Below are positions 26,520-56,238 of a stretch of 64,000 nt of DNA, in pieces (the first letter of the stretch is position 1; each line of letters starts with the position of its first letter). The stretch lies in IMG/VR virus record IMGVR_UViG_3300032331_000486, positions 1 to 64,000 of that record. One strand, written 5' to 3'. The translations under genes were made by a program, and so were the position numbers. Under the pieces are notes generated by a model. The model was not told the origin of the DNA, ran no database searches, and saw only the letters and a list, made by a program, of their open reading frames with translations. This DNA is from a virus.

Positions 26520-26781
26520 CGCTGCCCGCTTGCTACCTTGCCAACACTGTGGAACAAGTGACGGCACTGTAGTAGCGGCGCACTCCAACCAGCTGCGCGA
26601 CGGCAAAGGACGAGGGCTCAAGGCTCACGACTACCGAATCGCATCTTTATGCTACAAGTGCCACGCTGATCTAGACCAAGGCGCTAGACTGAATAAAGTC
26701 CAGAGAGTTGAAATGTGGGAAGACGCCCATCGCAAAACGATAGGCCTCTTCTTTGAGATGGGGATTATTGGGCCGCTTTAA
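26494..26781 (+). CDS. YbcO/DUF1364-like HNH-type nuclease
   Basis: The 95-residue product has a CQHCG pair, VVAAHSNQLRDGKGRGLKAH and DYRIASLCYKCHADLDQGAR. The H-x-N...G-x-G-x-K-A-x-D...C-x-x-CH pattern matches the small YbcO/DUF1364 phage nucleases, related to HNH enzymes acting in recombination. It is the last gene of the rightward operon. Its 3' end overlaps the 3' end of the giant gene on minus by 17 nt. Confidence 0.75.
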   Translation: MYRNKKLTDAARLLPCQHCGTSDGTVVAAHSNQLRDGKGRGLKAHDYRIASLCYKCHADLDQGARLNKVQRVEMWEDAHRKTIGLFFEMGIIGPL

Positions 26782-35700: not shown

Positions 35701-38700
35701 GGTTAAAGCCAAGCAAATCTGGCTTTTGTAAGTACGCTTTGATACCGTACTCTGCCAACTCACGGTTGTTCTTTGGCCACCAGCCTTGGCGCATGTGATA
35801 GAACATGGACTCAGCCATTGAGCCGTTTTTAATCTCAGGCCACTTGAATAGACCCATTTCTTCCATGATGGAGTCAACGCGCTTTGCCATGTCAATGATG
35901 CGCTGGTTGACTTTGCTTATTTGCATGGCTTCAGGAGTCAAGACTCTTTCTTGACCATTGCGAAGTTCTTTGGTTTCTTCAGCTTCTTTTTGGTCTTTAA
36001 ACCACTGCAAGCCACCATAAGTGCCTGAATCTAAGTTGTACTGATCCAAGACGGCGTAACCCAAGTCTTCAATAAAGACGATCTTGGTTTCCATCTTGTA
36101 GGTCTTGACCGCCAGAGTCTCTGGATCAATCTGTTCAAGCATCTGCTTGTAGACTTCATTGAGTGTGGGTCGCTCTTTGCCTGCTGGATAAGATGTTCCA
36201 CCGTAACCATTCTTCTTTGATATATATCCATCAGCAACCGTTGGGCCTACGAGGTATGGCGATCCACCTTTAGATTCATCAAACAACATAGACTCAAAGG
36301 CGCGAGACAATAGTTCTTCGTTGGAACTCCAATAGGCAGGACTTCTGTTTTCTGCTTCATCTAAAGCGCGGGCATCTCTAAAGAACTGAGTTTGTTTGTA
36401 TGAATTCCTAAAGATTGGCGCTTGCTCATAATACGAGCGGTTTGTAATCGCAGCAAAAAACGCTTTCTTAGGAGGTAAATTACGGTTGTCTGTGCTGTTA
36501 GATGTATCCCGCAGAATGGCTTTTAGATTGTTTTCTACTGTCTCAGGGTCTATGGTGTTTCTAAGAACACTGACTGTGCCTTCCATCAGCTTTTTGCCGT
36601 TGGCTCCTTGCTTAAGGTTCCAATCTAAGCCATGTTGCCACTCATGACCAAGCGATCCATCGCCTTTGGTTTTGGTGAGGTTTATTTCATTAAGATTTGG
36701 ATAGTAATGAGCTGCAGTTCTACCGCCTCTTCCTTGCGCTCCAATAGCCATCTTGAGCTTTTGACCCAAGCCAAGCATCTTTGGAGAAATACCAGAGACA
36801 TCCGCCAAGTCATACATGGCGTCATAGATGGCATTCAAATGAGCCGCGCGCTCGCTCTGGTTAACCCAGTTACCAAAGTCAATACCGCCCGGGAACATGC
36901 CAAACGTATCTACAAAGTCTTTTGTATCAACGTCACGACCTTGGCGGTGATCACGCATACCACGGCGGATGATGTTGCCTAGCTCTGGTGGTACTTCAGT
37001 TTCTTTTTTGACGATGCGGTTAGTTTGATCGGTTGAGTCTTCATTAGCTCCAAACAACTGGAACATCTTGTCAAAGATTCCAGTTAAGTTATTAACTTTT
37101 AATTTGGTACGAAGAGCAAGACCATCTGGCGTGTACTTTAATGTTGACGAATTTGCATTTTCGTCTTGAACGTATTTTTCCTTTAATGCAAGATCCAAAT
37201 CGCCTGCACGGGCGTGAGAATCAAAGACTGCTTGAAGTTTTTGAAGCGCATCAACATAACCTTGCACAAGCATTTGAACTTCATCTTGCTTACCCGCTTC
37301 CAAAGCCATTTTGATAGCTTGTCGGCTACCCGTTCTTTCAGATATACGAACAGTTCTGGCATTTTTAAGAGCTGCAAGAATATAGTCAGATGCAGGCAAT
37401 ACATAGCTTACAACGCCCTCTTTGTACATCATCGTGCCAAACGAATTGTCTGGGTTTGAATTGATATCGAGAAGAGTATCTTTAGCCAAGCCTGCCAACA
37501 TCTTGGTGATCTGGCTGTCTGTAGCATCTTTAGGTATTGGAGGAGCAGTAATTAAACTTTTTCGGTTTTTAACAAACTCAGCGCCACCACCTTGGATGCT
37601 TACCTTTTCAGGTTTGTACAGAGCGGAAATAGTTACACGCTCAGGGCCTTTGTAATCAGGGTTGTCCGTGGTCGCTGGGACTGAGCGATCTGTAATACGA
37701 AATCCAAACTTAGACAGAGCAGTCTCAATAGTTGAAACATTGGGGATATCCACAGGGATGCGTAGCAACATTTCGTCAGGAAAGATCGCGGGCATCAGGT
37801 CTTCAGCTACGGCATTTCCGTACAAGAGAGACGCAACAGAATCTGCATTGCCAGACTCCATGGCAACCTTCATAGGATTCTTATTGAATTCCTCTGCTTT
37901 TTTCTTTTGCTCTTCAGCCTTAGCTTTTTCCTCTGCGGCTTTAGCTTTTTCTTCTTCAGAGACTTCTACCTTTGGAGGCTTGGGCGCTTTAGGTGGAGCA
38001 GCGGGGCCGCCTGTAGGTTTCTCTGGTTCTTTTACAGGTGCGGCTGGGCCAGCTACAGGAGCGGGTTCTGCAGGCTTTTCTTCTGCTGGCTTCTCTGTAA
38101 CCTCTGCTGGTTTTTCAACAACTTCTGCAGGTTTTTCTTCTTTTGTAACTTCTTGTGGTGGAAGCTCAAGCGCCTGAATGTCATCAAGAGATAGGCCATA
38201 CTTTTCTTGGCCTTCTTTAATGGAGTCTAGATAAGTTTCAAACTCAGCAATCTCGTCTTCTGTATAGCCTCTTAATCTAGAGAACTGTTTCCAGTCACCG
38301 CTGTCGTAGGCGGCTCTTTCCTCTGGCGTCCAATCTTCTGGATTGCTTTCCTTTTCTTTGGCAGCCACGCTGTTTGAAAGCTCTATGTGTTTGTTTTCCC
38401 ACTCTTCAAGGGATTGAGTAGGAACTTCTTCAACTTTAGCGGGCTCAGTTGGTCCAGCTGTAACTTCTGCCGGAGCTTCTGGTGCGGCAGGCTCTTCTAC
38501 TTTGACGGGCGCAGCTGGCCCAGCAGTTGGAGCCGCTGGCTTGATGTTGAATAGCTCTGGATATTTTTGAGCGTACTTCCTAGCTTCTTGTTGGCTTATT
38601 GCAGATGGCAGGCCTTCCATTACTGAAACGGCTTCATTGATGCCCATGCCGCCTCTCAGGATTACAGTCTCAAGACTCTGCCCACGAAATACTGGGATTG

Positions 38701-40483
38701 GCGCTTTAGGATCAAGTCCTTTGAAGTAACTCATAGGAACAGCAAACCCGCCATAACCAAACTCACCATGAATTGGGACTAGTCCATTTTTTGGATCCTT
38801 AGCCTTTTCATGCAACGCTTGATCGGCTTTGACTTCTTCTGGTGTTCTTGCTGGCGCTACAGGAGCGGCAGGTTGAGCCACCTTAACAGGCGCAGATGGG
38901 CCGCCTGTAGGAGTGATCGGAGCGGCTGGCGCTTCTGGCTGGGTAACCTGAACGGGTGCAGCAGGGCCTGCAGTTGGAACTTGTTCCACTTGAGAAGGTT
39001 GTTCTTGTACAGCTTCTGCGGGTTTACCCTCAATCTGCTGTTCAAGTTCAGCCAGCATGGCCTCGTAGTCTTGGCTTCCTTCTGCTTCTGGAATGGTCTG
39101 TTGGACTAAGTCTGTGCTTGGAGCCTGAGTCTTTGCCTCAATCTCTGCGGCAGCCGCAACTTCTTCTTGAGTCGCAGCTGAACCTTTTGCCTTGACAACA
39201 TCGACGTAGTTAGGATCGGTTGGGAGAACAGTTTCACCATTGAATGGATTGATAACTGCTGGGCCTGCAGGTGGAACGGCAGGTGAAACGGCAGGTGAAA
39301 CGGCAGGTGAAACGGCAGGTGGAGCGCCTGCCGGAGGAGTACCTGCCGGAGGAACACCAAGTATTTGTTGATTCTGTTGAACCAGTTGCTGAATGCCTTG
39401 TGGCTGTTGGCCAGTCGCGCCAGCACCGCCACCCAACGCACCCATTGCAAAACCAGTTACAAGCCCCATTCCTGCGGCTTCTGGAACGCCTTCAAATATA
39501 GGTCTATTTGTGGCGTAGTTCATCCACATCTTTTCTTGGGCTGACTGAGGCATCTCTTGGAGTGCGCCTTCAGATAGTCCGGAACCAACAACACGCTTGG
39601 TAAAGTCAACAACTGACTTGGCTGGGCCTAATGAAGAACCGGCTGCAAGCATGGTTTGTACGTCATCAAACCCCATTCTGTTGGCCAGACGACCGCCAGC
39701 AACGCCAAACAACGCAGTGCCAGCACCACTTCCTAATGCGGCTAACGATTGTTCTGTTGTGAGTAACTTGTTTGCGTTTTGAGCGCGTATGTCTTCGGCT
39801 GCAGAGCCTGCGCCCAAAATGCCTTCGCCCAGACCACCAGCAACTACGGCTCCAACTTTAGGAGCGGCTTTTAATATACCCCTAGCTATGCCCGCACCAC
39901 CAATCATTTGAGGCAGCGACTCGCCAATAGAAGTAGCAATCGTGCTTGGGTTTTGTAAAGCAGCTTGAATTTTTCCACCAAAGCCTTCAGCTTCGTTTAC
40001 TTTGCGATTGGCCGCTTGCTGGGCTTCTGAATAGTAGGTGTCTAGGATTGCATTAGCTTCTTTTGGCTTGTAACCATTTTGCTCAAGGAACTTACCTAGC
40101 GCGCCTCGGGCTGGGATATCAGCCAAGCCAACAAATGATTCAGGCAGGCCAATAGCCCCTTTGAGGAAAATAATGCCAGCGTCTACCAGAGTACCTGAGA
40201 CTGTACGATCTGGAGACTCTTGGTTGCGCTTCTCTAATGCAGCCTTGTACGCTTGGGCATCCATCACATTAGGAGCCATTGGAACGGCTGGTTCAGCTGG
40301 CGCGGCCTGAGTTACTGGTGCAGCTGCTGGAACTATAGATGGAAGGCCGGCCTCTGGAGCGCTTGGTTGAGCTTGCGTAGGAGCGCCAGCTGTATATTTG
40401 CCATAACGCGCCAGTAATTCTGTTTGCGTAATATTGTCAGGAACGCCTGTTACCGTTCTGCCATCTGGCATTAAGACATCCAT
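26765..40483 (-). CDS. Giant polyvalent protein: LPD1 zincin, adenine methylase, Strawberry-notch helicase, LPD38-like C-terminus
   Basis: This 4,572-residue protein starts behind AAGGGGCGGGC. In order: an N-terminal MPDGRTVTGVPDNITQTELL segment; a Gly/Ala-rich hydrophobic region (about 95-360); Pro/Ala-rich linkers to about 870; an LPD1-type domain with GRGGRTAAHYYP and HEWQH (1280-1284); an N6-adenine methylase with LDPTGGNG (about 1700) and NPPF (1761-1764); a Gly-rich linker; a Strawberry-notch SF2 helicase with GDDTGVGKGR (2290-2299), DEAH (2425-2428) and GRIHRTGQ (2875-2882); a HEAIGH motif (3538-3543); and an LPD38-like end. Such polyvalent proteins, like P1 DarB, are packaged and injected and are thought to protect phage DNA from restriction. 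A second gene appears overprinted at 34447-34821. Confidence 0.85.
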   Translation of the reverse strand: MDVLMPDGRTVTGVPDNITQTELLARYGKYTAGAPTQAQPSAPEAGLPSIVPAAAPVTQAAPAEPAVPMAPNVMDAQAYKAALEKRNQESPDRTVSGTLVDAGIIFLKGAIGLPESFVGLADIPARGALGKFLEQNGYKPKEANAILDTYYSEAQQAANRKVNEAEGFGGKIQAALQNPSTIATSIGESLPQMIGGAGIARGILKAAPKVGAVVAGGLGEGILGAGSAAEDIRAQNANKLLTTEQSLAALGSGAGTALFGVAGGRLANRMGFDDVQTMLAAGSSLGPAKSVVDFTKRVVGSGLSEGALQEMPQSAQEKMWMNYATNRPIFEGVPEAAGMGLVTGFAMGALGGGAGATGQQPQGIQQLVQQNQQILGVPPAGTPPAGAPPAVSPAVSPAVSPAVPPAGPAVINPFNGETVLPTDPNYVDVVKAKGSAATQEEVAAAAEIEAKTQAPSTDLVQQTIPEAEGSQDYEAMLAELEQQIEGKPAEAVQEQPSQVEQVPTAGPAAPVQVTQPEAPAAPITPTGGPSAPVKVAQPAAPVAPARTPEEVKADQALHEKAKDPKNGLVPIHGEFGYGGFAVPMSYFKGLDPKAPIPVFRGQSLETVILRGGMGINEAVSVMEGLPSAISQQEARKYAQKYPELFNIKPAAPTAGPAAPVKVEEPAAPEAPAEVTAGPTEPAKVEEVPTQSLEEWENKHIELSNSVAAKEKESNPEDWTPEERAAYDSGDWKQFSRLRGYTEDEIAEFETYLDSIKEGQEKYGLSLDDIQALELPPQEVTKEEKPAEVVEKPAEVTEKPAEEKPAEPAPVAGPAAPVKEPEKPTGGPAAPPKAPKPPKVEVSEEEKAKAAEEKAKAEEQKKKAEEFNKNPMKVAMESGNADSVASLLYGNAVAEDLMPAIFPDEMLLRIPVDIPNVSTIETALSKFGFRITDRSVPATTDNPDYKGPERVTISALYKPEKVSIQGGGAEFVKNRKSLITAPPIPKDATDSQITKMLAGLAKDTLLDINSNPDNSFGTMMYKEGVVSYVLPASDYILAALKNARTVRISERTGSRQAIKMALEAGKQDEVQMLVQGYVDALQKLQAVFDSHARAGDLDLALKEKYVQDENANSSTLKYTPDGLALRTKLKVNNLTGIFDKMFQLFGANEDSTDQTNRIVKKETEVPPELGNIIRRGMRDHRQGRDVDTKDFVDTFGMFPGGIDFGNWVNQSERAAHLNAIYDAMYDLADVSGISPKMLGLGQKLKMAIGAQGRGGRTAAHYYPNLNEINLTKTKGDGSLGHEWQHGLDWNLKQGANGKKLMEGTVSVLRNTIDPETVENNLKAILRDTSNSTDNRNLPPKKAFFAAITNRSYYEQAPIFRNSYKQTQFFRDARALDEAENRSPAYWSSNEELLSRAFESMLFDESKGGSPYLVGPTVADGYISKKNGYGGTSYPAGKERPTLNEVYKQMLEQIDPETLAVKTYKMETKIVFIEDLGYAVLDQYNLDSGTYGGLQWFKDQKEAEETKELRNGQERVLTPEAMQISKVNQRIIDMAKRVDSIMEEMGLFKWPEIKNGSMAESMFYHMRQGWWPKNNRELAEYGIKAYLQKPDLLGFNPAKDQREIENYKISDFEGDRVKLKQTQEDFEAAAVRFVSQVITDMRAAGSDTKAIYDHIVGLYQTQPTLDVQSVLSKTNNAYSTPLPIGFLAGMLAQVKSTTTVLDPTGGNGMLVVAANPQNVTTIELDPHRAKNMELMQIGKVIQGDALEKIDDLRDQEVDVVLANPPFDNLPTPELVPSWDGQNYKISKLEQLIAAKSLRAMANNGRAVLILGAHLKAGTITTPDRAFLNWLYANYNVVDHYEIAGNLYRKQGASWPLRVLVIAGRNQTENFYPNDFNVNRITTFDELWSRYVQTSDRSQQVVVGTGKRKPVTGGANRPAGGVPAGGTLENGETGAGVGTQGGSGVGEQLPETGRGAGTTAGGGRGTTGAAGTGEQQPDYGNGKRRGSGGGETGKPEGGLDSGRGSGAELGGLSDLDLDAIFDKLGKPEKPKGGPRAPRGAPKEPGAPKAPRTPTAKGPTVIPKELEGLGLEALLDELDVALNGKAPEVAKEVTEENSEARLDKQANEAMGRIAQNTKNTSDDPNSGLYSRKGDQEYANVQPIIQKVWNAVGERVSDLAQRINQVYELLVKRFGESIKAHLRTFVDSLRTVVQRRPKNQTPVQAEPIDTESRVVYLGKSRFSSDGIYLPRAQSQHAYTALENLEAQVGNIDEFVANELGYPSVEKMAKGLAGYQIDGLALAIQANKLGKGFIIGDDTGVGKGRAAAAMIVWAKKNGKIPIFVTVSKSMYTAMYEDLINIGHEDIKIGMTNNKAIIQRNMGNGRIKTVFENADKAGPNLMSYITKNGELPKGMDVLFTSYSQLNGGVGSPARQNAIASLVAAGKAVLVMDEAHNAAGVAINPNSRGQNAFFMSLLTGLNLLGKDKDAPEDWQPPPAVYLSATFAKRPDNMPLYIHTNLRYAANTPEELTALFGKGVKTDVLQQVSSEMLVESGSMLRRERSYEGVKMYFYPDEATGDPNAPRDIREVDKVTVILRALVNADRALKEWTKDPGTQVEIINTLGPPGSMFGKEGPTAFNEAKGNPFTSVVHNYIGTLLLSTKTQTAVDMVVDKMNNGEKVVVGLQNTNGSALDDFVEKNGIKIGDEIPNFGWQTLLQRAIDSTRKITLKSATGNEKDNIKVEIPYSMMPPSIRAGYDNLADMIKDFQSDLPVAPIDYMRTELENKYVWTIGEKTHVGNEPPPGVKARRLVVREITGRSTAVNYNGDKPKYMSLNNPERTEMISSFQNGEESENGPIDVLIINSAGATGISLHASTEAFDQRPRHMIVLQPHGDISVFIQLLGRIHRTGQVEWPSFTMLATSIPAERRISAMLKKKLASLKSNTSGGSNSTQVGGVDFINRYGDVATAEYLNEHADIRAFLGQQSFNDPEEAAGTDLAHKASGTAGLLSSADQQEFFDSIEASYLANIELRNSTGTNALERRVLPLNAEMIKENLIEEGLDSNNPFLTDVVMAQFNVDVIGSIPTQQNILDDIAQALNGRTAQQVVEEIDTDLNTIFVEARNQIILKQQALAAEIAAPNATEKDIQVATKRKEALDADFATLGNRREKTLNALRNQYAIGTGFESFMLNNVPASAVVIGIKVDKARIGKSKTGNPYSPSNFQVIFKRNIPEGRVAPTLATLEGPSIDQSSSWRNPPLDQWFALKSVTGGRTTRYVALGNILRAAQLFDKDGGEIAKFTIMNQTEPVSGVIMPAKYEPVAISAQPVRLRNPNAAVQYTLAAWQKILQNKYEGTQVEEYKNLADMLQPLLLPNLPDFQTFTDLQKSTYTNVIIRGTQNLWTLSLDSYRPLGFRLSISGDAPKKFVTSIKDISMAKQGGRYEMSRGSYIANFEKIISLIKQLHKSYPATVEADAGQLAREVMKVEFDDSESKKGMFSRKVAEGGQSVKDVQSQIVPIKGIRVNVVQSSDDLPDQCAPSDVEGVWYSGNTVYLVADNLPNAQRVQEVLAHEAIGHAALEAMLGKQLMGALVKNVLTLEETSKLVKDIAAQVDRTQPGLSDERRAKEIVAIMAERGLYGGLVQRVIQAVRRWLRDAGFTIKFSDSDILALLKNAEKFAAAADSAPKLFGTPEPFFSRNYQGGPAPVAQWSSPDSTTMTNIEYQLADKFVDLKHVIREIEKGAGTIQENFDAYTKETLMHGRASEAIQDFLNKELLPILKDMREKKVTLAELEEYLHNRHAEEYNIQIAKINLTMPDAGSGIFTDDANAYLNNLTQDQKDKFEALAKEVDAIVRRTQEVAVEGGLETQETIDIWNQTYPNYVPLKRADLDYVNTGSGVAKGIQTKGPFSKRAMGSLKDVVDIVSNIAVQREKAIINSEAARVGKALIGLVIKNPNPGFWMAVNPDAIKNKKKLEDELIRLGLNPTDAQNLFQEPKSPSIDPKTGLVRYKVNPTLRDSKNVVAVRVNGKDWYVFFNGNDPRALRMAETLKNLESEKLAMVLGIVGSATRWMAAVNTQYNPVFGAWNFLRDVGSATINLTNTPLAGKQAQVLLNTMPAMAAIYRELRATRKGKAVSSYWVDAYNRYRLAGGKTGFKEQFSKGQNKLTIVERELAKLDRGNARQIADSIFGWLSDYNDTMENAVRLAAFDIATKSVADGGLGLSEQEGAAIAKDLTVNFNRKGAASKWIQVLYAFFNASVQGGLKVGRTLAGPAGRKIMVGGVVVGIAQALAMAMAGFDDDDPPEFIKAKNFIFPSLTGDGTYKVFPMPLGYSIFPGLGRLITEYILAQNGVISSKKGASDVVVDIMSMTVEAFNPFGSGSLWQMAMPTVADPFAAIAANKDAFGRPIYKEDRATNPTPGYMRSRESASAISQFISEFLNYVSSPAGTKYTKGSIDYTADEIDYLIGQATGGVGREIMKGAQYIGAIAEGTTEEVPTYRVPIVGKFLGETGSPAAISANFYDNVTRLAKHENEIKSLIKNKEPTADYKSEHPEWRYYNRANYLENQISQINKQIKVAQERDRPDETIQKMKDRKVAMMKKFNEQVKAAQ
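34447..34821 (-). CDS. Overprinted 124-residue gene inside the giant gene
   Basis: In the +1 frame of the giant gene, an ORF begins at ATG 34821 with GGAG at ideal spacing (34830-34827) and runs to TAG at 34449-34447. Its sequence (MFKPVIVANKSWWVPENESQ, then LLAVQIDLPGEYQQAVRWKM, and an acidic end LNWEDFLT) looks like an ordinary folded, helical, acidic protein with Trp and well-mixed residues. The giant protein's own frame here is low-complexity Gly/Thr-rich linker. That contrast and the ribosome site suggest true dual coding. Function is unknown. Confidence 0.6.
   Translation of the reverse strand: MFKPVIVANKSWWVPENESQLLAVQIDLPGEYQQAVRWKMEKLVREWGLKEAVESANSYLKQDGALELPPVEDEEQLVQLVLENNSRIMEMVNAGDPAVAKPASQKEALTAVEDQELNWEDFLT
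35162..35174. repeat. Dispersed palindrome copy (GGAACAAGTTCC) in methylase domain
   Basis: An exact 12-bp core with one flanking T; the other flank is changed (G for A). In the giant gene it encodes PELVP, just after the NPPF motif. Confidence 0.5.
38975..38988. repeat. Dispersed palindrome copy TGGAACTTGTTCCA
   Basis: An exact 14-bp copy in the Pro/Ala-rich linker of the giant gene, encoding VEQVP on minus. Confidence 0.55.
39267..39326 (-). repeat. 12-bp tandem microrepeat in the giant gene
   Basis: Five head-to-tail units of GCAGGTGAAACG (plus strand), with small changes in the first and last unit. They encode repeats of PAVS in the Pro/Ala linker. Slippage would alter linker length in steps of four residues without a frameshift. 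Confidence 0.75.
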
Positions 40484-40492
40484 GCCCGCCCC

Positions 40493-42220
40493 TTATTTTG
40501 GTAGATCTTCAAATTTTACAGGTTTAGGGCCAGAAGGTGCGCCACCTAAAATTTCAGGGGCATTCCTTGCCCACCATCCGGGTTTCTTTGACATTTCAAC
40601 AACTTGAGGTAAAGGCATCATTGGTGGTAATTCTGCGCCAATTGCGTTAAAGTGAAATTTTCTAATTTCATACATGCGTTGTAATGCTGCATTAAATTCA
40701 GGAGAGCCGGGTTCTAAACCGCCATTAGGGCCAATACGTTCAGCCTCTCGTTTGTACTGAGCGTCATTGTTTGTAGCAGCTTCTGCTTTAGCAATATTTT
40801 TATCCGCTTTAGTGGGCTTAGTTTCTTCGGCGGCTTTATCAAGATTTTCGTAATGCTTCCCAAGAATGCCGTAATACATTTTAGTATTTGCATTGGATTC
40901 TGCGGCATTTTTAGAAGTTTCTCCAGTACTGTATATATGAGAAGCCAAAGTTCCAAGGTCAGTTTTAACCTTAAAGGCATCAACAGTAAGTTTGTCAAAC
41001 TCTCTTTTAGCTTTTTCTCTTTCGGCAACAGCGGCCTCAATGCCAGCTGCATCACCACGGCGCTTGGCGTCTTCTTCTTTGGCTAGGCTTCTATGAAACT
41101 CAATAGCCGCAGTTTCTTGTTTGTCGCGGATAGTGTCTTGTTCTTTTTGCAACACTTGTGATGCTTCGGCAGCAACCGCGCCTTGGTAACCAATACCACG
41201 GGATGGATCGGCTTTAGCAAATGCGCTAGCCTGAGCAATTAGGCGGTCAATACCACCGCGCTCATACACTTCTTGCTCGCGCTTTTCTTTTGCAGCTTGG
41301 CGTTTTGTTGCCTCCGCATAAGGATCTTCTTTTACACCAGCTAACTTTTGGCTTTCTTTGATGCCTTCAAAAGCTTGGGCTCGGCTAAGAGTCTGTGGTG
41401 CAGTAGAAGTTATCTCTGGCGCTTTAGGAAGACTTGCAAGGATTGCTTCGTAAGAACCGGGTTTAGGAGGAGCTACTGGAGCTGCTCTTGGAACTGGTGT
41501 TTCATCGGTTGGTAAATTAACCAAAGTAGTGCCAGCACTTTCTAATTTAGGGTTGCCAGCCATAACTCGAGCAATTTGTTCTTTTGACATTAGGCGTTGA
41601 CGTTCTGCATCGGATTGGTCATTAGCCGCTGCAATAAGACCGTAATCGGCGGCTTCTTTTTGAGACAGCCTTCCATTTAAATGAGTGTATTGATCCTCAT
41701 CTGGATTTCCACGAATAACATCACCACGAGCAAACGCAACAATGCCACCGCCCGCGTAACTACTCTCATTGAAGTGATTGACGGGCAAAGACATTAGCCC
41801 GCCACCAGCAGCCATGACTGGTTGTCTTGCAGGAGAAGGTTGCTGTACAGGGGGAGCCTGAGTTGGGTTAACGCCTTGGGGTAGCTGGGTAATGCCTTGG
41901 TCAGGCTGGGCGGCCGCAGGGTTAACCATGTTTGGTGCAGCAGCTGGGTTAACCGTATATGGATTAGCCGTTGGGTTAATACCCGTAGGAGGCGCAGTTA
42001 AAGATCCAGCGACTTGGTCTTTAATAGTGCCTTTGGTTGTATCAAGCGCCGTGCTACCTTCTTCGATTTGCTTGCGACGATTCATCTCAATCAAAGCGAG
42101 GAATGCTGGCACTTCTGGGTTTGAGCCATTGGCGTACTTGATCAGGTCTTCGTTCTTAACCGTGAATGGGTCTTGAAGACTGCTTTGAACTTGAATTAAG
42201 TTTGCTGGTTCGATTGCCAT
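40493..42220 (-). CDS. Putative internal virion/ejection protein
   Basis: The 575-residue product has an N-terminal helical part (MAIEPANLIQVQSSLQDPFT), a Pro/Asn/Gln-rich linker (about 75-135), a Gly-rich motif (AAGGGLMSLPVNHFNESSYA then GGGIVAFARGD), and long charged helices (about 300-480). The Gly-rich AGGGLMSL motif also occurs near the end of the 43493 gene product. Placement between other ejection-type genes and the giant gene suggests a protein carried in the capsid and injected. No enzyme motif is seen. Confidence 0.6.
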   Translation of the reverse strand: MAIEPANLIQVQSSLQDPFTVKNEDLIKYANGSNPEVPAFLALIEMNRRKQIEEGSTALDTTKGTIKDQVAGSLTAPPTGINPTANPYTVNPAAAPNMVNPAAAQPDQGITQLPQGVNPTQAPPVQQPSPARQPVMAAGGGLMSLPVNHFNESSYAGGGIVAFARGDVIRGNPDEDQYTHLNGRLSQKEAADYGLIAAANDQSDAERQRLMSKEQIARVMAGNPKLESAGTTLVNLPTDETPVPRAAPVAPPKPGSYEAILASLPKAPEITSTAPQTLSRAQAFEGIKESQKLAGVKEDPYAEATKRQAAKEKREQEVYERGGIDRLIAQASAFAKADPSRGIGYQGAVAAEASQVLQKEQDTIRDKQETAAIEFHRSLAKEEDAKRRGDAAGIEAAVAEREKAKREFDKLTVDAFKVKTDLGTLASHIYSTGETSKNAAESNANTKMYYGILGKHYENLDKAAEETKPTKADKNIAKAEAATNNDAQYKREAERIGPNGGLEPGSPEFNAALQRMYEIRKFHFNAIGAELPPMMPLPQVVEMSKKPGWWARNAPEILGGAPSGPKPVKFEDLPK

Positions 42221-42232
42221 GTTATTTCCTTA

Positions 42233-43483
42233 TTAAGGCTCATTGGGGTCAAAGTTGACATCAGGCACCGTTTGATTTGGGTTGTAACCGGGATATGGAT
42301 TTTCTGGGACGGTCATAGCGTTTGGATCATAGATAGGCGACTCGGTTGAACCTGTTGGAATGAGCTCCCCATTAGCTCCCGGTGTGTATCTTCCGCCTTG
42401 TGAATCACTTATATAAGTTCCATCTGGGGATAGCGTGTATCCAAATGGAACTTGATCTGGGCTAATTGAATTTCTATTTAGCAAAGTGCTTGGATTAATA
42501 CCGGCAGCTTTTAGTACGTTAGTAATGGTGTCACCAGTCATACCGGAAGCTTTAAGGTTTTTAATAAGCTCTGCAGTACTAGCCGCAGTACCAACAGCAC
42601 TTTGTAAGAAGCTTGGCTTGGCGTTGAACGTACTTGCAGTAGATCCGCCAATACCTTTGATGAGGTTGGCTTGATTGGCAAGTAAGGTGCCGGGGTAGTT
42701 TCTTTGCTCAAGGTACTGGTTGTACAGAGCATTGAGGCCGGCTTGGTTTTGAGCTTGCTGAGTATTTCCAGCAGCACCCAAGGCTGTAAGATTTTGCAAT
42801 CCATACTGAGCTTGTTGGGTTCCTACGTTTCCTGCGGCTTGATTTGCCGTTGCGGCTTGAGATAGACCTTTGAGGCCTACGTCTGTACCGTACTGAGCTT
42901 CTTGAATCCTGCGAGCTTGGTCAGCATTAAATTGAGTTGCCGCCTTATCGTAAGCGGTGTTGTATCCCTGACCAGTAATAGTGGCTAAGTTAGTTCCTAG
43001 ATTACGTTGAGTCTCAGTATCCATCAAAGCTTGACGGGATCCGCCGTATGCTCCTGCTTGGGTGGACTTAGCCGCATTACCTAACTGAGTAATTTGAGCT
43101 TGGCGACGAGCCTCCTCCAATTGTGGATTAAGCGCGTTCTGCAGATATGGGTTCATGTACTGCTGGGCGGCATTTGCATCAAATGCACTACCAACAGGGT
43201 TGTAACTTGTTCCAGCTGATTTATTGCCAATATCTAAAAGATTGGTACCGGCCGTAGTCATGGTAGACGGCAAGGTTAAGTTTGATAATCCTTGAAATGC
43301 TTTATTTTGAAGCTCAGAAGTACCAGCGGTTAACTGACCCGTGTACTGAGGAGCAGGATTATTAAGAAGCGCCTGACCCTTACCCAGTACGTCTTGAACG
43401 TAAGGTTGCGTAAAGGTGCTTGGTCCCGTTACCGTTGCCGAGCTGGGCGTATCGGTAAGTCCTGAAGATGATAGTAGTGCCAT
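42233..43483 (-). CDS. Putative internal virion/ejection protein, Ala/Gln-rich
   Basis: The 416 residues are dominated by Ala, Gln, Asn and Thr helices (LNPQLEEARRQAQITQLGNA, then KSTQAGAYGGSRQALMDTET), with a hydrophobic stretch near 290 and a Pro/Asn-rich C-terminus. Such helical Gln/Ala-rich proteins downstream of tail genes in short-tailed phages are typically ejected with the DNA to form a channel across the envelope. The role is inferred from composition and neighbourhood. Confidence 0.6.
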   Translation of the reverse strand: MALLSSSGLTDTPSSATVTGPSTFTQPYVQDVLGKGQALLNNPAPQYTGQLTAGTSELQNKAFQGLSNLTLPSTMTTAGTNLLDIGNKSAGTSYNPVGSAFDANAAQQYMNPYLQNALNPQLEEARRQAQITQLGNAAKSTQAGAYGGSRQALMDTETQRNLGTNLATITGQGYNTAYDKAATQFNADQARRIQEAQYGTDVGLKGLSQAATANQAAGNVGTQQAQYGLQNLTALGAAGNTQQAQNQAGLNALYNQYLEQRNYPGTLLANQANLIKGIGGSTASTFNAKPSFLQSAVGTAASTAELIKNLKASGMTGDTITNVLKAAGINPSTLLNRNSISPDQVPFGYTLSPDGTYISDSQGGRYTPGANGELIPTGSTESPIYDPNAMTVPENPYPGYNPNQTVPDVNFDPNEP

Positions 43484-43492
43484 GGTATTTCC

Positions 43493-45514
43493 TTACTTAG
43501 GAATGAATTTTTGGGGTTTAATTTGTTTGCCCTGCTTGGGGTTTCCCGTGCGGGCTCTGCGAACTTGATCCATCATCTTGTATAAAACCTTAGCTCCAGC
43601 ATCTGTTGAGCCGTTTCCAAGATGAGATACCACATCAGCAGGGATTACAAACTCACCATCAGCCAATCTAGCTGGTTGCTTGTTGCTGATTGAAGCTGGT
43701 ATATGGTCTGACATTCCATCTCCGGGGCCTTTGAGTAAGCGGCCTCCATCAGAGTAACCGCCAAGAGCTCCACCCCCAGCCAAAGACATTAGACCGCCTT
43801 GTGCTGCAAACCGTGGATCAAGCATTGCTTGCCCTTGAGCCGCCCCATCGATAGGAGCCTCCCATGGGCGTGGATTCCAATTAAGAAGTTGTTGTTTGTA
43901 AGCGGCCGTTTGTGCAGCTGGGCTTGAGCTGTCACTAGCCAATGCACCTAAACCTAAAGCCGCTCCGCCAATCAAAGCCGCATTTCCAAAGTTAAATCCA
44001 CTGCCTGTAGAACCCGTAGAAACTTGTTTTACAGGAGTTGAAGTTGGTGTGCTTGTCAATGATTTTGAAAGCTCTGACAACGTGGGTTGTTGGGTTACAG
44101 GAATGATGTCAGCTAATGGATCTGTTTCCATGGCGGGCATATTTGATACAGAGTTTGGATCAATACCAATTGCATCCCAATAAGCTTGATCGCTTGCTGT
44201 TGTTTGAACAGGCGGAGCAGGAGGTGTTACCTCTGCTAGCGGATCAGTCTGTTGAGCTGGCATTCCAGATACAGAGCTTGGACTAATACCGATAGACGCT
44301 AAGAAGTCTTCTTGGCTTGTCTTGAGATCAGGCGTAAATTCTGTATCAACTACAGGAACTTCATTTGGTTTAACTGGAATTGCAGCTTCGGGCGTAATTT
44401 CTGGTTTAGTATCTGGCTCATTCATTAACGATTTTTGAAGTCCTGCTACAGACTCCATATCAGGCGCTAACCATGCATTGGTTGTTGGATCGTAGAAAGA
44501 ACCAGCTGGTTTGTTGTCTGCCTCAGCTGAAGACAATAAACGATAGCCAAACGGAGGTTTATATTCTTTAGCAGCAGGACTTTCGGCATAGATTGGTTTG
44601 CCAGATACATCCACTTTGTTAAAAGAGGCGGAATCTAATGGGCCTGCAACTTGTACGCCTTTGGGTAAAACTTGATCCGCAAGATCAGCCGTAGTTGTAG
44701 GCGCTGTAGTTGGCATAGTCCCAGCAAAAGTAGGATCAAACACACTTTCTGCTTTACCTGTATCGCCAGCCTTTAAGCCAGAAGCATTAGCTTGTTGGTA
44801 TTGACTCTTGGCCTCGGATATGCCTGAATTGATTGCGGCGTTTACTAAAGCTTGAGAAGGATCGCCGCCCATCAAAGTAGACGCAACAACCGAATTAACT
44901 GCCGCTTTTTGACCGGGCGACAAGTTCTCAAAGCCGGGAATCTGATCCGTAACAGCAGCTGTTCCAGCGGATATACCGGAGTTAGTCAGGGCAACCAAAG
45001 GATCTTGGCCACGAACAATGCCTGCAGCTGTGCCACCAGCAATCTTGCCCGCGATGTTTCCAGCTACATCTCCAGCCGTACCCATACCAGCTTCTTGTGC
45101 GGCCAGCATACTACTCTGTTGAGAACCTATATCTGTGCCATAAGTATTTGCAGCACCTACGCTGTCTACGCCCGTATTAACGTAATTGCTAACGCCTTGG
45201 GCAACGCCTTGGGCTACATAAGTAGTGGCCGCAGACTTCAAGCCATCTTCTAGACTTCCGCCGTGGGCTATTGTGTCTGCCGCAGAAACAAGAGGGAGAA
45301 ACTCAGGGGCAACAATTGCAACGGTTATTTTTGCAAGAGCGCCAACTGGGTCGGCTTCAACTGCTTTGATAGTGTTATCAACAGCTTTTACAACAGGTTC
45401 AACAACTTGCGTAACAACAGCATTGCCAACGTCGGAAACAGCATCTCCCACAGAGGAGACTACGTCACCTACTGCGTCACCTACATCCGATACTGCATCT
45501 GCTACTGCACCCAT
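43493..45514 (-). CDS. Putative internal virion/ejection protein, Gly/Ala-rich
   Basis: The 673-residue product starts with an amphipathic repeat (ADAVSDVGDAVGDVVSSVGD), then hydrophobic Ala/Gly segments, then Pro/Thr linkers with duplicated motifs (SSVSGMPAQQTDPLAEVTPP and SVSNMPAMETDPLADIIPVT). Near its end come a Gly-rich QGGLMSLAGGGALGGYSDGG and a basic domain (DGEFVIPADVVSHLG, RRARTGNPKQGKQIKPQKF). The DGEFVxPADVVSxLGNG motif is common in the C-termini of ejection or pilot proteins of related short-tailed phages. It probably enters the host envelope with the genome. Confidence 0.65.
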   Translation of the reverse strand: MGAVADAVSDVGDAVGDVVSSVGDAVSDVGNAVVTQVVEPVVKAVDNTIKAVEADPVGALAKITVAIVAPEFLPLVSAADTIAHGGSLEDGLKSAATTYVAQGVAQGVSNYVNTGVDSVGAANTYGTDIGSQQSSMLAAQEAGMGTAGDVAGNIAGKIAGGTAAGIVRGQDPLVALTNSGISAGTAAVTDQIPGFENLSPGQKAAVNSVVASTLMGGDPSQALVNAAINSGISEAKSQYQQANASGLKAGDTGKAESVFDPTFAGTMPTTAPTTTADLADQVLPKGVQVAGPLDSASFNKVDVSGKPIYAESPAAKEYKPPFGYRLLSSAEADNKPAGSFYDPTTNAWLAPDMESVAGLQKSLMNEPDTKPEITPEAAIPVKPNEVPVVDTEFTPDLKTSQEDFLASIGISPSSVSGMPAQQTDPLAEVTPPAPPVQTTASDQAYWDAIGIDPNSVSNMPAMETDPLADIIPVTQQPTLSELSKSLTSTPTSTPVKQVSTGSTGSGFNFGNAALIGGAALGLGALASDSSSPAAQTAAYKQQLLNWNPRPWEAPIDGAAQGQAMLDPRFAAQGGLMSLAGGGALGGYSDGGRLLKGPGDGMSDHIPASISNKQPARLADGEFVIPADVVSHLGNGSTDAGAKVLYKMMDQVRRARTGNPKQGKQIKPQKFIPK

Positions 45515-45515
45515 A

Positions 45516-45947
45516 TCATTGTCCTAAGTTCAAAACAATCCGCCTGCCGCCGGACTTGAGCTTGTACTCTTTGAACCCCATGCCGGGCATCGGGGGCTTC
45601 TTAGAGATGGCGTGGAATAAAGTACTTATTGCCGGATCCTCAAACTCTGTGACCAGCATGTTCATACCCATTTTCTTGGCATAGACCACATACTGTTTAC
45701 TGTTTTCTACAAAGTTACGGGCTTTGTCGGCGTTCAAAGCTTTAAAGAATCCTTGGCCTTTATCCCCTTTATGAAGGATAAAGATCGTATTACCAATTTG
45801 TTTTACATCTGTATTGGGCTGGGTCATCTCGGTCAGCATGGCTGGGAATGCCACTTTAGGCGAATGTTGGGAGCGAGTGTTCTCCAACGCGATATGAGCT
45901 ATCTCAGCGTTGTTGAGCTTTTTCTCCTTGCTGTCCACCATTGCCAT
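45516..45947 (-). CDS. GNAT-like acyltransferase candidate (T7 gp13-like position)
   Basis: The 143-residue product contains IGNTIFILHKGDKGQGFFKA, DKARNFVENSKQYVVYAKKM, GMNMLVTEFEDPAISTLFHA and a final strand (GFKEYKLKSGGRRIVLNLG). The succession of central strands, a helix, then strand-helix-strand resembles a GNAT N-acyltransferase fold. T7 gp13, an internal-core assembly protein, has a comparable fold and size. It lies 1 nt after the ketoacyl synthase gene, so an acyl-transfer role using ACP-bound chains is attractive but unproven; no unambiguous acyl-CoA P-loop (Q/RxxGxG/A) is visible. Confidence 0.45.
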   Translation of the reverse strand: MAMVDSKEKKLNNAEIAHIALENTRSQHSPKVAFPAMLTEMTQPNTDVKQIGNTIFILHKGDKGQGFFKALNADKARNFVENSKQYVVYAKKMGMNMLVTEFEDPAISTLFHAISKKPPMPGMGFKEYKLKSGGRRIVLNLGQ

Positions 45948-45948
45948 A

Positions 45949-47037
45949 CTAGATCTCCAGAATTGCTGCAGAATACACGTTACCCATGCCAGCGGCCAAG
46001 CTGAGAATCAACCCACCGGGGTTAGACTCATCATAGGAAAGAAATTGGTTGTCATGTGTTGTGCGGTTTTCTATCTTTGGCACAACGCCACGTTTTAAAT
46101 CATCAATTAGCAAACATGTCTCGAGCAAGCCACTGGCGCCCATAGTGTGGCCGATTTTAGCCTTGTATGACGTTGCAATGTAACCCCCTAAACAGTAATT
46201 TAAAGCGGCTTTTTCAGCTACGTTATTGGAACTTGTTCCAGTGCCATGGGTTTTGACCACTTTAATCTGTTCGGCGGTAGCGCCAGAAACATGCAAAGCA
46301 CCCTCAATAGAACGCACAAACCCCTGCCCGTCCTCTCGCTGGCCGATAGCATTTGAATGATCCTCGCTAGCCGTATACGCCCCTTTGAGGGTGGCCAACG
46401 GGTTGTCTGAGTCAGCCTCAAACACCGCCAGTACAGCGCCTTGGCCAACTCTGAAGCCATAGTTAGTGTCATCAAACGCTGATGGTAATACGCCACGCTC
46501 CTCTTCTTTTTGAGACAAGGACGCTCTAGCCTCACCAAAGAACTCCAGCACCGCGTTTGATACGGCATCCTCAACCGACAGAACTACTACTCTTTTAAAC
46601 CCGTAGTGGTTGATGAGGGTTTGGACGTCCATGAGGGCTTTGAGGCTTGACGCACAGGCCGTGGCATCGGTAACAACATGATCCGTAGCACCCAGAGCTT
46701 GGGCCGTTCTTCCAGCGTAGACCTGAGTAAGGGAAAAGGGGAGGAACTTGTATTCATAGGACAACCTTGTAGGCTTCTTAGAGCGTGGGTTAATTCCGGC
46801 AAAGTGGGCGTTACCCGAAGCAAGAATAAATGCAGTCTTGCCAACGCGGTTCTCTCGTAGGTATTTGACCAGCTCAGGATCTAAGACTTTCTCGGCCAAG
46901 CGGTGAGGAGCGTAAAACATCCCAGTACTCACGCGGGCGTATGTTTCTGGAAACCAGTGAACTCTCTGAGGAAACGGTCCCTCCATGAGTTCAACCGTAG
47001 TTGAGTAAGCCGTCCGGTAGTGGGTTAGGTGGATCAT
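45949..47037 (-). CDS. Beta-ketoacyl-ACP synthase-like enzyme
   Basis: The start is the ATG overlapping the ACP-like stop (ATGA), giving 362 residues. The thiolase-fold condensing-enzyme motifs are complete: the active-site Cys128 in DATACASSLKAL, His264 in VKTHGTGTSSNN, Lys292 and His297 in YKAKIGHTMGASGLLE, and a Gly-rich C-terminus (SLAAGMGNVYSAAILE). This is the Cys-His-His-Lys set of FabF/FabB-type enzymes, which join malonyl-ACP to an acyl chain. The N-terminus is shorter than in FabF (about 410 residues). It stands between tail and ejection genes, with an ACP-like gene directly before it. Confidence 0.85.
   Translation of the reverse strand: MIHLTHYRTAYSTTVELMEGPFPQRVHWFPETYARVSTGMFYAPHRLAEKVLDPELVKYLRENRVGKTAFILASGNAHFAGINPRSKKPTRLSYEYKFLPFSLTQVYAGRTAQALGATDHVVTDATACASSLKALMDVQTLINHYGFKRVVVLSVEDAVSNAVLEFFGEARASLSQKEEERGVLPSAFDDTNYGFRVGQGAVLAVFEADSDNPLATLKGAYTASEDHSNAIGQREDGQGFVRSIEGALHVSGATAEQIKVVKTHGTGTSSNNVAEKAALNYCLGGYIATSYKAKIGHTMGASGLLETCLLIDDLKRGVVPKIENRTTHDNQFLSYDESNPGGLILSLAAGMGNVYSAAILEI
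46227..46240. repeat. Dispersed palindrome copy TGGAACTTGTTCCA
   Basis: An exact 14-bp copy in the ketoacyl synthase gene, encoding GTSSN at the catalytic HGTGTSSNN motif on minus. Confidence 0.55.
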
Positions 47038-47315
47038 TTGATCTGCTCCAAAGCCCATTCCATAGACTCAGGATCGCGCGTCTTGTGCAGCTGGATAAAG
47101 TCATACAGCTCATCTACAGTCTCAGGCTGGAACTCTTTGGATATCTCGTCTGGGATGTCATAGATCATGCCCATAAACATACCGATCATCAGCATGTCTA
47201 GGGAGTCAAAGCAAGTCTCCTCGAACCTCTCATCCATCCGCTCAATAGGGACGAACTCATGGTGAGCCGGGCGGGCGACTCTGGCTACTTTGTTAAGCAG
47301 TTCTATAAAGTTCAT
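47034..47315 (-). CDS. Acyl carrier protein-like
   Basis: The 93-residue acidic helical protein holds FEETCFDSLDMLMIGMFMGM, where Asp-Ser-Leu (Ser38) is the usual 4'-phosphopantetheine attachment motif of ACPs. The C-terminus (DEISKEFQPETVDELYDFIQ) matches ACP helices III-IV with the typical T-V-x-E/D-L-x-x-F pattern. The N-terminal 20 residues are less typical. It overlaps the ketoacyl synthase gene by ATGA. A host phosphopantetheinyl transferase would have to charge it. Confidence 0.75.
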   Translation of the reverse strand: MNFIELLNKVARVARPAHHEFVPIERMDERFEETCFDSLDMLMIGMFMGMIYDIPDEISKEFQPETVDELYDFIQLHKTRDPESMEWALEQIK

Positions 47316-47662
47316 CCGACCTTCCAGTTTGTTCCATCTGAATATACAGGCGTTTTGACCGCCCCGCCTGTGGCTACGGTTGAACCAAATACCGGAGCTA
47401 AAGCATCAGACACAAACGCCCTAGCCCCAATTCCAGATGTAGCGGCGCTTGGAAGGGTTGTCACCGTATAAACGGTAAGGGCGGGGATTATCCCGCTGTC
47501 CGTACTTAGTTGATCCAATATGCCTTGTATTCGGTTGAAGTACAGGCGCAAGACATTATTAAACTGATTTTGGTATAGAGGGGAATACTCCTCCCCACCA
47601 AGAGGCAATGCTGGTGCCGCAATTTTATTTATTTCAGATTCAGAGGTAACGATGTATGTCAT
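47312..47662 (-). CDS. Small virion/tail-type protein
   Basis: The 116-residue product (MTYIVTSESEINKIAAPALP) has a helical middle (YQNQFNNVLRLYFNRIQGIL) and a C-terminal Gly/Thr beta region ending VYSDGTNWKVG. That ending is typical of tail-fibre or receptor-binding modules with a DGTNW turn. It sits between the tail protein and the ACP-like gene and overlaps both. A fibre-attachment role is possible. Confidence 0.55.
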   Translation of the reverse strand: MTYIVTSESEINKIAAPALPLGGEEYSPLYQNQFNNVLRLYFNRIQGILDQLSTDSGIIPALTVYTVTTLPSAATSGIGARAFVSDALAPVFGSTVATGGAVKTPVYSDGTNWKVG

Positions 47663-49794
47663 CGTCTGCCGTCCTGTCTAATGTCTAGACGGGGCGATCC
47701 TAGTTGCCAAGTTACTCCTGCGGCAGTAGACCTGACTTCCATAGCCATTTGACGGCCTCTAACCCTTGTATAGATCTGCCCCGTGAATTCTTCAATTGGA
47801 AGAATTGCCGTGCGGGTAATAGTGGCCGAGGCATCGCCACCTACAGACGCTGGGCTGTTATACCCAGAGCCTGAGTTCTGCATGGGCTTTAAGTACATAG
47901 TGACTTGCGGGCTAGTTGCCGTAGATCCTCTAAAGGTAATGTCTGGTACTACACGCCATATAAACCCAAACCTATCGCCGTCATCAATATCAAACTCAGC
48001 AGATGTGATGTAAGCCTCAATAGGTAGAGTCGTACCCGTAGTCTTATCGTCAACACCAATTTCATGGTTGACTAAGTTGTAGTCATAAGTGGCTCCAATT
48101 GGGTAATCGCTTAGACCAGAATCCAGCCATGCTGTTCTGCCCATAGAGCCGTAATACCAAACGCCAGTACCGCCTTTGCCGTCTGGTTCAAGGTAGTTAT
48201 AGACAACATAAGAGTCAACCACGGTAGAGTCTAAAGAACAGTAGAACCACCAGATTTCATTAAAGCCCTCGTTAGTTCCAGACACAACTTGGTCAAACTG
48301 GTCTTTGTTTATGTTTTCAAAAACGTGCTGGCGCAGATCACAAGACAAGGTTTGAGTGCGTCCATCGTATTTATAGAACTTATCTACGCCCATCCAGTAC
48401 GCCACGCCACCAGCGTAGCCCACGGCATTTTCTCCAGCGATAGATACGTTATCACCAACCAGTTGAGAACCCCACACCACGGGAGCGCCTACATACTGGA
48501 GAGAATAAAGGGATGAATCAGTCCATACCAATATCTCTTGTCGGGCTTGCATGGCCGTAACAATCTCAGAACCGTGAGACAGACGAAGATCACCAGCTGT
48601 ATTAGTGGCGGCGGGAGTCCATTCCACTACGGATTCTTGGTTAGACCAACGGATCTGCATGGGGTCTTGAGTAGTCGATCCAAGTGCGTTACATCCAAAA
48701 GCAAACACATATCTGCTTGTATCAGAGACAAGAATAAAGTTTTGCACCGTAGGACAGGCGGATGCGCTGGCTAGGCTGGCAATGTTTATACCTCTTGAAG
48801 ATACAGAATGAGTGCCAGATTGAACGCCTGTTGTGATTATGTTTGCTCCACCAAAAGTAGCTGTCAGGTTGCAAGTAGCCCCAGAAGAGTTAGCAACATA
48901 ATAAACAGTACCTACAGACAATCCTGTGGGTAAAGCGCCTGTAGTGGTTAGCTGGATAACCGTGCCATTGGGAATAGCAGTCAAACTTCCAAACGTAACC
49001 ACAGCCGGACTAGCAATCGTTACTGTAAATGTAGATCCTGTTACGCCTAGATTGGCGTTCCATAAATAAATAGCACCACCCCTTGGGCCAAAGATTAGGT
49101 CTTGGCCAAAGTTACTTTGACTCCACAAGCGCATAGCGTCCGTAGATGCGGCACCAAAGCCCCATGTTCCATATCCCCATAGGCCAGTTCCCCAGCCGCT
49201 CAAAGGGACTGCATAGGCTGGGCCGGTGTTAATTTGATATTGAGCAATCACAGTTCCGCCGCCGGGTGATCCTGATGCGTCTGTGGCATTAGCCGTGGCT
49301 GAGACAGTAATGGTGTATGTGTTTACTGTAATGACAGTAACTTTGAACTCGCCGGTCAGCACAGCGGCAGTAATGTTTCCACCCAAACTAGTAATGCCTG
49401 CACCACTGAAAGTTACATAGTCGTTGGTTATGCATCCGTGCGCTGTGGCTGCAACGCTGATTACGCTAGAACTAGCCGTAGCCGTGAAAGGATTGGTTAA
49501 GGTGGCTGTAGCCCTGATCGGGGTTACATCGTTATAAACACCCCCACGCTCGATGTAGAACTTGAGGTTAGTGCCTACGCCAATCAGATTAAGAGCAGAA
49601 AGGGTTACCCAGTTCCACAGGGATCGACAAATCCCTAGAAACGTGTCAGTGGAGATGCGTTGCCAGCCGCCTATTTTCTCAGGTGTGCCTTGGCGGAAAC
49701 GGATTTTGTCGCAGTCGTACCAGCCGTTCTCATTGGTATAGCGAGTGTTCTCCTTATTGACCCCCGGCCTTAGAGCTAGTTTTTTTAGTGGCAT
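47659..49794 (-). CDS. Large tail protein (nozzle/stabilisation-type)
   Basis: The 711-residue product begins KKLALRPGVNKENTRYTNEN and GGWQRISTDTFLGICRSLWN, a start shared by large tail proteins of short-tailed phages such as the gp10-like packaged-DNA stabilisation family. The body is a repeated beta-strand pattern with an insertion rich in Thr/Ala/Ser (about 90-175 and 250-330), then Trp/Gly blades (LVGDNVSIAGENAVGYAGGV, then AYWMGVDKFYKYDGRTQTLS). A beta-propeller or nozzle that plugs the portal is likely. Confidence 0.65.
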   Translation of the reverse strand: MPLKKLALRPGVNKENTRYTNENGWYDCDKIRFRQGTPEKIGGWQRISTDTFLGICRSLWNWVTLSALNLIGVGTNLKFYIERGGVYNDVTPIRATATLTNPFTATASSSVISVAATAHGCITNDYVTFSGAGITSLGGNITAAVLTGEFKVTVITVNTYTITVSATANATDASGSPGGGTVIAQYQINTGPAYAVPLSGWGTGLWGYGTWGFGAASTDAMRLWSQSNFGQDLIFGPRGGAIYLWNANLGVTGSTFTVTIASPAVVTFGSLTAIPNGTVIQLTTTGALPTGLSVGTVYYVANSSGATCNLTATFGGANIITTGVQSGTHSVSSRGINIASLASASACPTVQNFILVSDTSRYVFAFGCNALGSTTQDPMQIRWSNQESVVEWTPAATNTAGDLRLSHGSEIVTAMQARQEILVWTDSSLYSLQYVGAPVVWGSQLVGDNVSIAGENAVGYAGGVAYWMGVDKFYKYDGRTQTLSCDLRQHVFENINKDQFDQVVSGTNEGFNEIWWFYCSLDSTVVDSYVVYNYLEPDGKGGTGVWYYGSMGRTAWLDSGLSDYPIGATYDYNLVNHEIGVDDKTTGTTLPIEAYITSAEFDIDDGDRFGFIWRVVPDITFRGSTATSPQVTMYLKPMQNSGSGYNSPASVGGDASATITRTAILPIEEFTGQIYTRVRGRQMAMEVRSTAAGVTWQLGSPRLDIRQDGRR

Positions 49795-55506: not shown

Positions 55507-56238
55507 TTATTCCTTAAATTTACAGTTGTCCATATGCCATCTTGGCATAGCAGTTAATCCACCCACTTTTTTGCAGTGCGGACATTCAATCTTTGGAAAG
55601 TGTTTTCCTGTCATGGCATTTGGTCTACCAATGTTTGCCAATTTTAATTGGGATTTTGTATGCTCGGTCATTTTTCTTCCAAGCGATGCGCGGCCAATCT
55701 TTGCCTTGTGTTCATCAGTAAATTTTCTACCAGTATTGGCTTTAATAATTGCTTCCAAAACATGGGAAGGAATTTTCTCGCCTTTGTTGTGAGGAATAAA
55801 ACCTTTTTTAAATCTAGTGTTAGCACCGTGAATAATCAAATTTTGCATAACAAGGGCTTCTACTTCTGGCGTATGTCTATGCCCTTTTTTTGATGCGCTT
55901 ACTTTTGCTTTTGTCTCTTCTGACATTGGGCCAAAAACTTTACCTAAAGCGCTTGGCGGCATACCACCACCAACAGCAACATTCCAACCAATTTGGTCAG
56001 TCGCTCTTAGTTTTGCTTCAATCATCAAGCAATATGCTTCATCCGCAATAAGCAACACTTTTTTAACCAGCGTGTCCCAGCCATACTTTTTTATGGCTCT
56101 TTTTAAATGCTCATTTGACGGGCTATTTTTATGGCTAGAAAAACGAGTCTTGACATTTTTAGACACACCTATGTATCCCTGAGTCAGCATATCGCTGTGG
56201 TCAGGGTGGTGTACCCAATAAACGCTACAGGCCGTCAT
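55507..56238 (-). CDS. GIY-YIG homing endonuclease
   Basis: The start is the ATG overlapping the upstream fibre stop (ATGA), giving 243 residues. The N-terminus has GIY-YIG motifs (SVYWVHHPDHSDML then QGYIGVSKNVKTRFSSHKNS). Then come Arg and Glu in the usual order (YCLMIEAKL). The middle has NUMOD3-like DNA-binding repeats (FTDEHKAKIGRASLGRKMTE, and MSEETKAKVSASKKG). The C-terminus has a Cys/His pair cluster (IECPHCKKVGGLTAMPRWHM and CKF). It lies between tail-fibre genes, a common site for such selfish genes. Confidence 0.85.
   Translation of the reverse strand: MTACSVYWVHHPDHSDMLTQGYIGVSKNVKTRFSSHKNSPSNEHLKRAIKKYGWDTLVKKVLLIADEAYCLMIEAKLRATDQIGWNVAVGGGMPPSALGKVFGPMSEETKAKVSASKKGHRHTPEVEALVMQNLIIHGANTRFKKGFIPHNKGEKIPSHVLEAIIKANTGRKFTDEHKAKIGRASLGRKMTEHTKSQLKLANIGRPNAMTGKHFPKIECPHCKKVGGLTAMPRWHMDNCKFKE

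Follow-up and report, generated by a model that had tools for sequence, protein, structure and literature searches.

The window that we analyzed is a stretch of 64,000 nucleotides, which is most of the 65,021-base record of an uncultured virus (IMGVR_UViG_3300032331_000486). On its minus strand, from 47315 to 45516, three genes form one cassette. The first (47034..47315) encodes an acyl carrier protein (ACP)-like protein of 93 amino acids, with Ser38 in an FDSLD motif (codon 47204-47202). The second (45949..47037) encodes a FabF-type ketoacyl synthase (KS) of 362 amino acids and starts in an ATGA overlap with the ACP gene; the codons for its putative catalytic residues are at 46656-46654 (Cys128), 46248-46246 (His264), 46164-46162 (Lys292), and 46149-46147 (His297). 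The third, G3 (45516..45947), follows the KS stop at 45949 with a gap of 1 nt and encodes a protein of 143 amino acids with a predicted GNAT fold. Because several relatives lack an open upstream start, we place the start of KS at the ATG of the overlap; the mechanically called reading frame, from 47058, is 7 amino acids too long.

The rest of the module lies on the same strand. Immediately after G3 comes D1 (43493..45514), an ejection-type protein of 673 amino acids whose amphipathic N-terminus begins with MGAV. It is followed by a DNA ejection protein-like gene (42233..43483, 416 amino acids; phrog_4287, 1.1e-8) and by a gene for a protein of 575 amino acids (40493..42220), the third gene after G3, for which a family search gave no match. 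The module's last gene encodes a large polyvalent protein of 4572 amino acids (26765..40483) with LPD38, LPD1, and Strawberry-notch helicase matches; this protein also has methyltransferase-like matches and is probably injected. Upstream of the ACP are a protein of 116 amino acids with no assigned function (47312..47662), which is replaced or absent in many relatives, and a virion structural protein of the stabilization type (47659..49794; phrog_3287, 5.7e-56). Farther away, a homing-endonuclease-like gene sits amid the tail fibre genes (55507-56250).

KS matches PF00109 (3.2e-10) and PF02801 (2.4e-17) above the Pfam cut-offs, and its best match in the PDB is FabF (4ddo, 1.7e-18). The assignment to the FabF-type ketoacyl synthases is sound at the level of the family and suggests that the protein is a condensing enzyme. 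The full Cys-His-His-Lys set of the original prediction was numbered correctly, and all four residues are invariant across the 88 unique homologues that we aligned. KS shares this set with the FabF/FabB-type ketoacyl-ACP synthases, and both thiolase-like halves can be detected. On the other hand, it is about 50 residues shorter than FabF, its N-terminal 70 residues are divergent, and AAGMGN replaces the GFGGTN loop. The phage KSs form a phage-specific group, and the cellular KSs are so distant that the tree has no reliable root. We found no transacylase, reductase, or dehydratase among the window's reading frames that we tested, so the remaining steps of chain building must fall to the host's enzymes; nor did any further family of fatty acid synthesis appear among the reading frames searched.

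The ACP family falls below Pfam's thresholds, and a Pfam search with the window's ACP alone gave no match. When a profile of the family was compared to the PDB, 15 of the 16 matches were ACPs (plant ACP 2ava, at 1.3e-3). The AlphaFold2 model (pLDDT 92) places Ser38 where helix II begins, and essentially all of the Foldseek matches listed for it are ACPs, with individually weak E-values. The protein is thus recognized as an ACP by its profile and its predicted fold, and its sequence suggests that it is phosphopantetheinylated. The serine first noticed in a DSL motif is invariant in 83 unique ACPs, as are Asp37 and Asp40, and lies within D-S-[LM]-D. Although the DSLD serine opening helix II and the order of the helices are those of known PP-binding carrier proteins, the phage ACP has an additional C-terminal helix, and the usually acidic face of helix II is mostly Met, Gly, and Ile. 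Relative to close relatives, the approximate dN/dS is 0.005-0.04 for ACP and 0.03-0.06 for KS, so both are under strong purifying selection. We found no AcpS in this phage's genome. Among 38 viral records that we tested, one encodes it: a 22 kb viral contig that also carries ACP-KS (locus L400) has a holo-ACP synthase on its minus strand (L407:19017-19391, E 1.5e-17).

Sequence-family searches with G3 gave no convincing match. Its predicted structure (pLDDT 91) has the order a1-a2-b2-b3-b4-a3-b5-a4-b6-b7, and the PDB matches listed, the top ones included, are GNATs (best E 1.4e-4, TM 0.45-0.59). The GNAT-like layout that had been read from the sequence is therefore borne out at the level of a predicted fold. 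Across 84 unique G3s, Ser6, Leu11, Glu40, Gly52-Asn53-Thr54, Phe68, Asn72, and Asp74 are invariant, and the approximate dN/dS against close relatives is 0.08-0.16, higher than for ACP and KS. By our reading of the alignment, the CoA pyrophosphate motif [QR]xxGx[GA] after strand 4 is missing; at that position is ALNAD-x-A-x-N, a ALNADTARNFVENS-like sequence. The toxin acyltransferases that use acyl-ACP also have a GNAT fold without the CoA elements (PMC8339906), and they work by a His/Asp dyad (PMC8510554). But membership in the HlyC family, with which the original prediction drew a comparison, is not supported: none of 42 G3 sequences matched PF02794 at E<=1, and while Asp74 is invariant, no His is invariant in the 84 unique G3s. 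Without a conserved His, G3 lies outside that family. We also tried the autoinducer synthases and acetyltransferases of Pfam and rejected them, as the 42 sequences did not match these either. Still, G3 resembles the RTX toxin-activating acyltransferases (HlyC/CdiC type) in its predicted fold without CoA elements, in the adjoining source of acyl-ACP, and in that it may acylate the product of a neighboring gene; it differs from them in having its own KS alongside. By analogy, it may work as they do.

Among 50,697 GenBank phage records, just one, MW202545 (Manatee Spring), has a close KS (66%); its G3 (55%) lies in the same gene order. The KS of that record (L001:20160-21104) is annotated with a start about 52 codons too late, and the neighboring ejection-type gene is labelled as a coronavirus S2 glycoprotein, evidently a misannotation. 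Searches of viral contigs gave 54 KS loci and then G3 relatives, of which we took the best 80 from each of three sets of candidates (195, 400, and 305). We counted 147 distinct G3 sequences whose contigs extend at least 2 kb upstream, and 144 of these have ACP-KS as the immediate upstream neighbor; KS identities across the syntenic loci range down to about 50-57%. The recurrence of this order in over 140 distinct viral loci is far beyond chance, so the coupled three-gene cassette of the original prediction is real and widespread. The cassette's component families are known, its combination and context are new, and it is conserved and unexplained. Two side observations concern its surroundings: at one locus an oxygenase-like gene (by reading) for 218 amino acids lies between KS and G3 (L385:5100-5756), the sole such insertion that we saw, and one cassette is on a 37.6 kb contig that was binned in a Balneolaceae genome (L120), which is a weak hint as to the host.

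Of the three exceptional G3 sequences, two (L188 and L201) have neither ACP nor KS upstream. The third has an intact G3 and a decayed relic of the C-terminus of KS, with His297 changed to Phe; because the same relic is present in two independent contigs (L058 and L059), chance or an assembly error is unlikely to explain the loss of ACP-KS. When we began instead from D1, with a narrower D1 clade as the query, G3 was present in all 80 loci and ACP-KS in 58. Another 4 were cut at the end of the contig, and 18 have G3 without ACP-KS, although several of these are near-duplicates and some have weak G3 scores. At two loci without ACP-KS, the gene directly upstream of G3 encodes a predicted metal-dependent hydrolase (PF10118; L365:2791-3534 and L362:2740-3483). 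Since G3-D1 persists at loci without ACP-KS, G3 does not need a phage ACP.

The module consists of two co-evolving units, ACP-KS and G3-D1. Across 91 loci, distance correlations were 0.88 for ACP with KS and for G3 with D1, 0.78 for KS with G3 and for ACP with G3, and 0.48-0.61 for the upstream structural gene with the others; these values depend in part on how closely the genes are linked and on their common ancestry, and they do not prove function. At every locus that we saw, D1 lies directly downstream of G3, and the pairing of the GNAT gene with an ejection-type gene is a tight one. D1 itself evolves with an approximate dN/dS of 0.09-0.22 relative to close relatives. ACP-KS moves as a pair: L072 and L024 are alike in the upstream gene (90% identity), G3 (78%), and D1 (75%) and unlike in ACP (45%) and KS (56%).

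ACP-KS also occurs away from G3. With the KS of L072 as the query, we found seven loci (L396-L402, on at least four distinct contigs) with an intact ACP-KS between a helicase and small genes of the replication region, and with no G3. In the unrooted KS tree, these form one clade that adjoins the G3-linked loci. The longest of the contigs (22 kb) has no match to G3. By reading, it seems to begin within ejection-like genes, for which BLAST gave no match to the window's genes, so G3-D1 could lie beyond its end. Nevertheless, this lineage implies that the pair can function, or at any rate be maintained, with no G3 next to it, and we gave up the strict view that ACP-KS always comes with G3. The original link of ACP and KS to virion genes is in part contradicted by this one lineage.

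If G3 modifies a protein, then the obligate pairing makes D1 the most plausible acceptor. Of 144 D1 sequences, 133 have Ser or Gly as the second residue, and the protein starts with M-[S/G]-A-V and then an amphipathic stretch. In distant lineages that lack ACP-KS, D1 mostly starts with M-G-W, or with another M-G or M-S, and the later sequence differs. We had taken this N-terminus as proof of N-acylation and downgraded it after a control: the gene after D1 has a small second residue in 85% of cases (mostly Ala), as do 53% of the window's genes in general. As an acylation site, the N-terminus is suggestive only.

We tentatively favor a reading, which we would place a little below an even chance, in which G3 acylates D1 with a chain supplied by the phage's ACP and KS. 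A 4'-phosphopantetheinyl transferase, here the host's AcpS, would activate the phage ACP. ACP and KS would be a two-gene unit for building acyl chains, fed by the host's malonyl- and acyl-ACP, and the residues of KS are the full set expected for decarboxylating condensation. G3 would then move the acyl (or ketoacyl) chain from the phage ACP to a virion protein, most likely D1, and acylated D1 would be helped to partition into or span the host's envelope. Four elements of this reading are inferred: that KS condenses, that ACP hands the chain to G3, that the chain is transferred, and that D1 receives it, possibly on an N-terminal Gly or Ser. We count in favor of acylation the 144 of 147 linkage, the invariant catalytic residues, the low dN/dS, the missing CoA loop, the pairing of G3 with D1, the second residue of D1, and a relative's own holo-ACP synthase. 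Against it are the ACP-KS of the replication region, G3-D1 without ACP-KS, the independent exchange of ACP-KS, and the correlation of ACP-KS with G3 (0.78), which is below those within the pairs. Also, the catalytic residues of G3 are putative at best, and a small second residue is not unique to D1. The original interpretation is partly supported: the GNAT fold, KS site, ACP serine, synteny, and pairing with an ejection gene are borne out, and membership in the HlyC family is not.

The main alternative is that ACP and KS serve as a separate auxiliary metabolic pair and divert the host's fatty acid synthesis, so that chain length, saturation, or membrane supply is altered late in infection; the position ahead of G3-D1 would then be no more than a favored place for insertion. 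Phage ACP and fabF genes have been reported as auxiliary metabolic genes in roseobacter prophages, R22Y, and pelagimyophages, and the available portions of these reports describe no GNAT of an ejection module alongside (PMC8224337, PMC11705849, PMC7029224). The replication-region lineage, one contig of which also encodes AcpS, fits as well, as does the independent swapping or loss of ACP-KS, and the slot before G3 is filled by the unrelated PF10118 enzyme at two loci and by small proteins elsewhere. However, so steady an adjacency (144 of 147 loci) would be unusual for a metabolic gene that is optional, and the window's reading frames that we searched gave no other family of fatty acid synthesis. 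Nor would a phage need a private ACP with few acidic residues in helix II merely to add FabF activity. We consider this alternative quite possible, if somewhat less likely than acylation.

G3 might instead be a non-catalytic chaperone for the assembly of D1, with acyl-ACP (with or without KS) as a structural cofactor rather than a donor. It would then resemble T7 gp13, for which a role in morphogenesis has been proposed. G3 and T7 gene 13 occupy the same position, with tail genes on one side and genes for internal virion proteins on the other, and one report equates a GNAT in such a neighborhood with T7 gp13 (PMC6775973). The missing CoA loop and the obligate pairing of G3 and D1 would also suit a chaperone. 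But a structural role would not demand the invariant catalytic set of KS, the polar residues Glu40, Asn53, Thr54, Asn72, and Asp74 of G3 are invariant, and G3 has no profile similarity to T7 gp13 (PF11090), which led us to reject homology between the two. We consider a chaperone improbable. That ACP-KS and G3 make a small N-acyl compound or signal and modify no protein is less likely still: the LuxI, FeeM, and OlsB families are GNAT-fold enzymes that turn acyl-ACP into such products, but the 42 G3 sequences have no Pfam match to autoinducer synthases or other acyltransferases, and the partner with which G3 tightly co-evolves, D1, is a large protein of the virion type.

The acylation reading can be taken further. 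The module might be dedicated to protein lipidation, with its own ACP and KS and with a GNAT in the gp13 position that acylates an ejection protein, perhaps on its N-terminal Gly or Ser, for insertion into the envelope; we think that this is unlikely, if not strongly so. By analogy, other podoviruses have GNATs at the corresponding position, T7 gp13 among them, that might perform a similar N-terminal modification with acyl donors from the host; T7 lacks ACP-KS. Like them, G3 lies directly before an internal virion or ejection gene, and both D1 and T7 gp14 (MCW) start with a conserved small residue. In T7-like phages the MCW start of gp14 is nearly invariant, which echoes the arrangement of G3 and D1. 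By reading, T7 gp13 resembles the C-terminal half of a GNAT (L125:1308-2319, T7 genes 13 and 14); searches of the PDB and Pfam with T7 gp13 gave no GNAT match.

Our literature search, to which most subscription journals were closed, found no described system that joins ACP-KS to a GNAT of the ejection module. If the acylation reading is correct, then phage-encoded acylation of ejected virion proteins would be a new route through the envelope, and the GNAT-like proteins that have long been seen near internal virion genes would have a testable function. Even if ACP-KS is metabolic, a conserved and mobile pair, once accompanied by a holo-ACP synthase, is a distinct fatty-acyl unit of uncultured phages.
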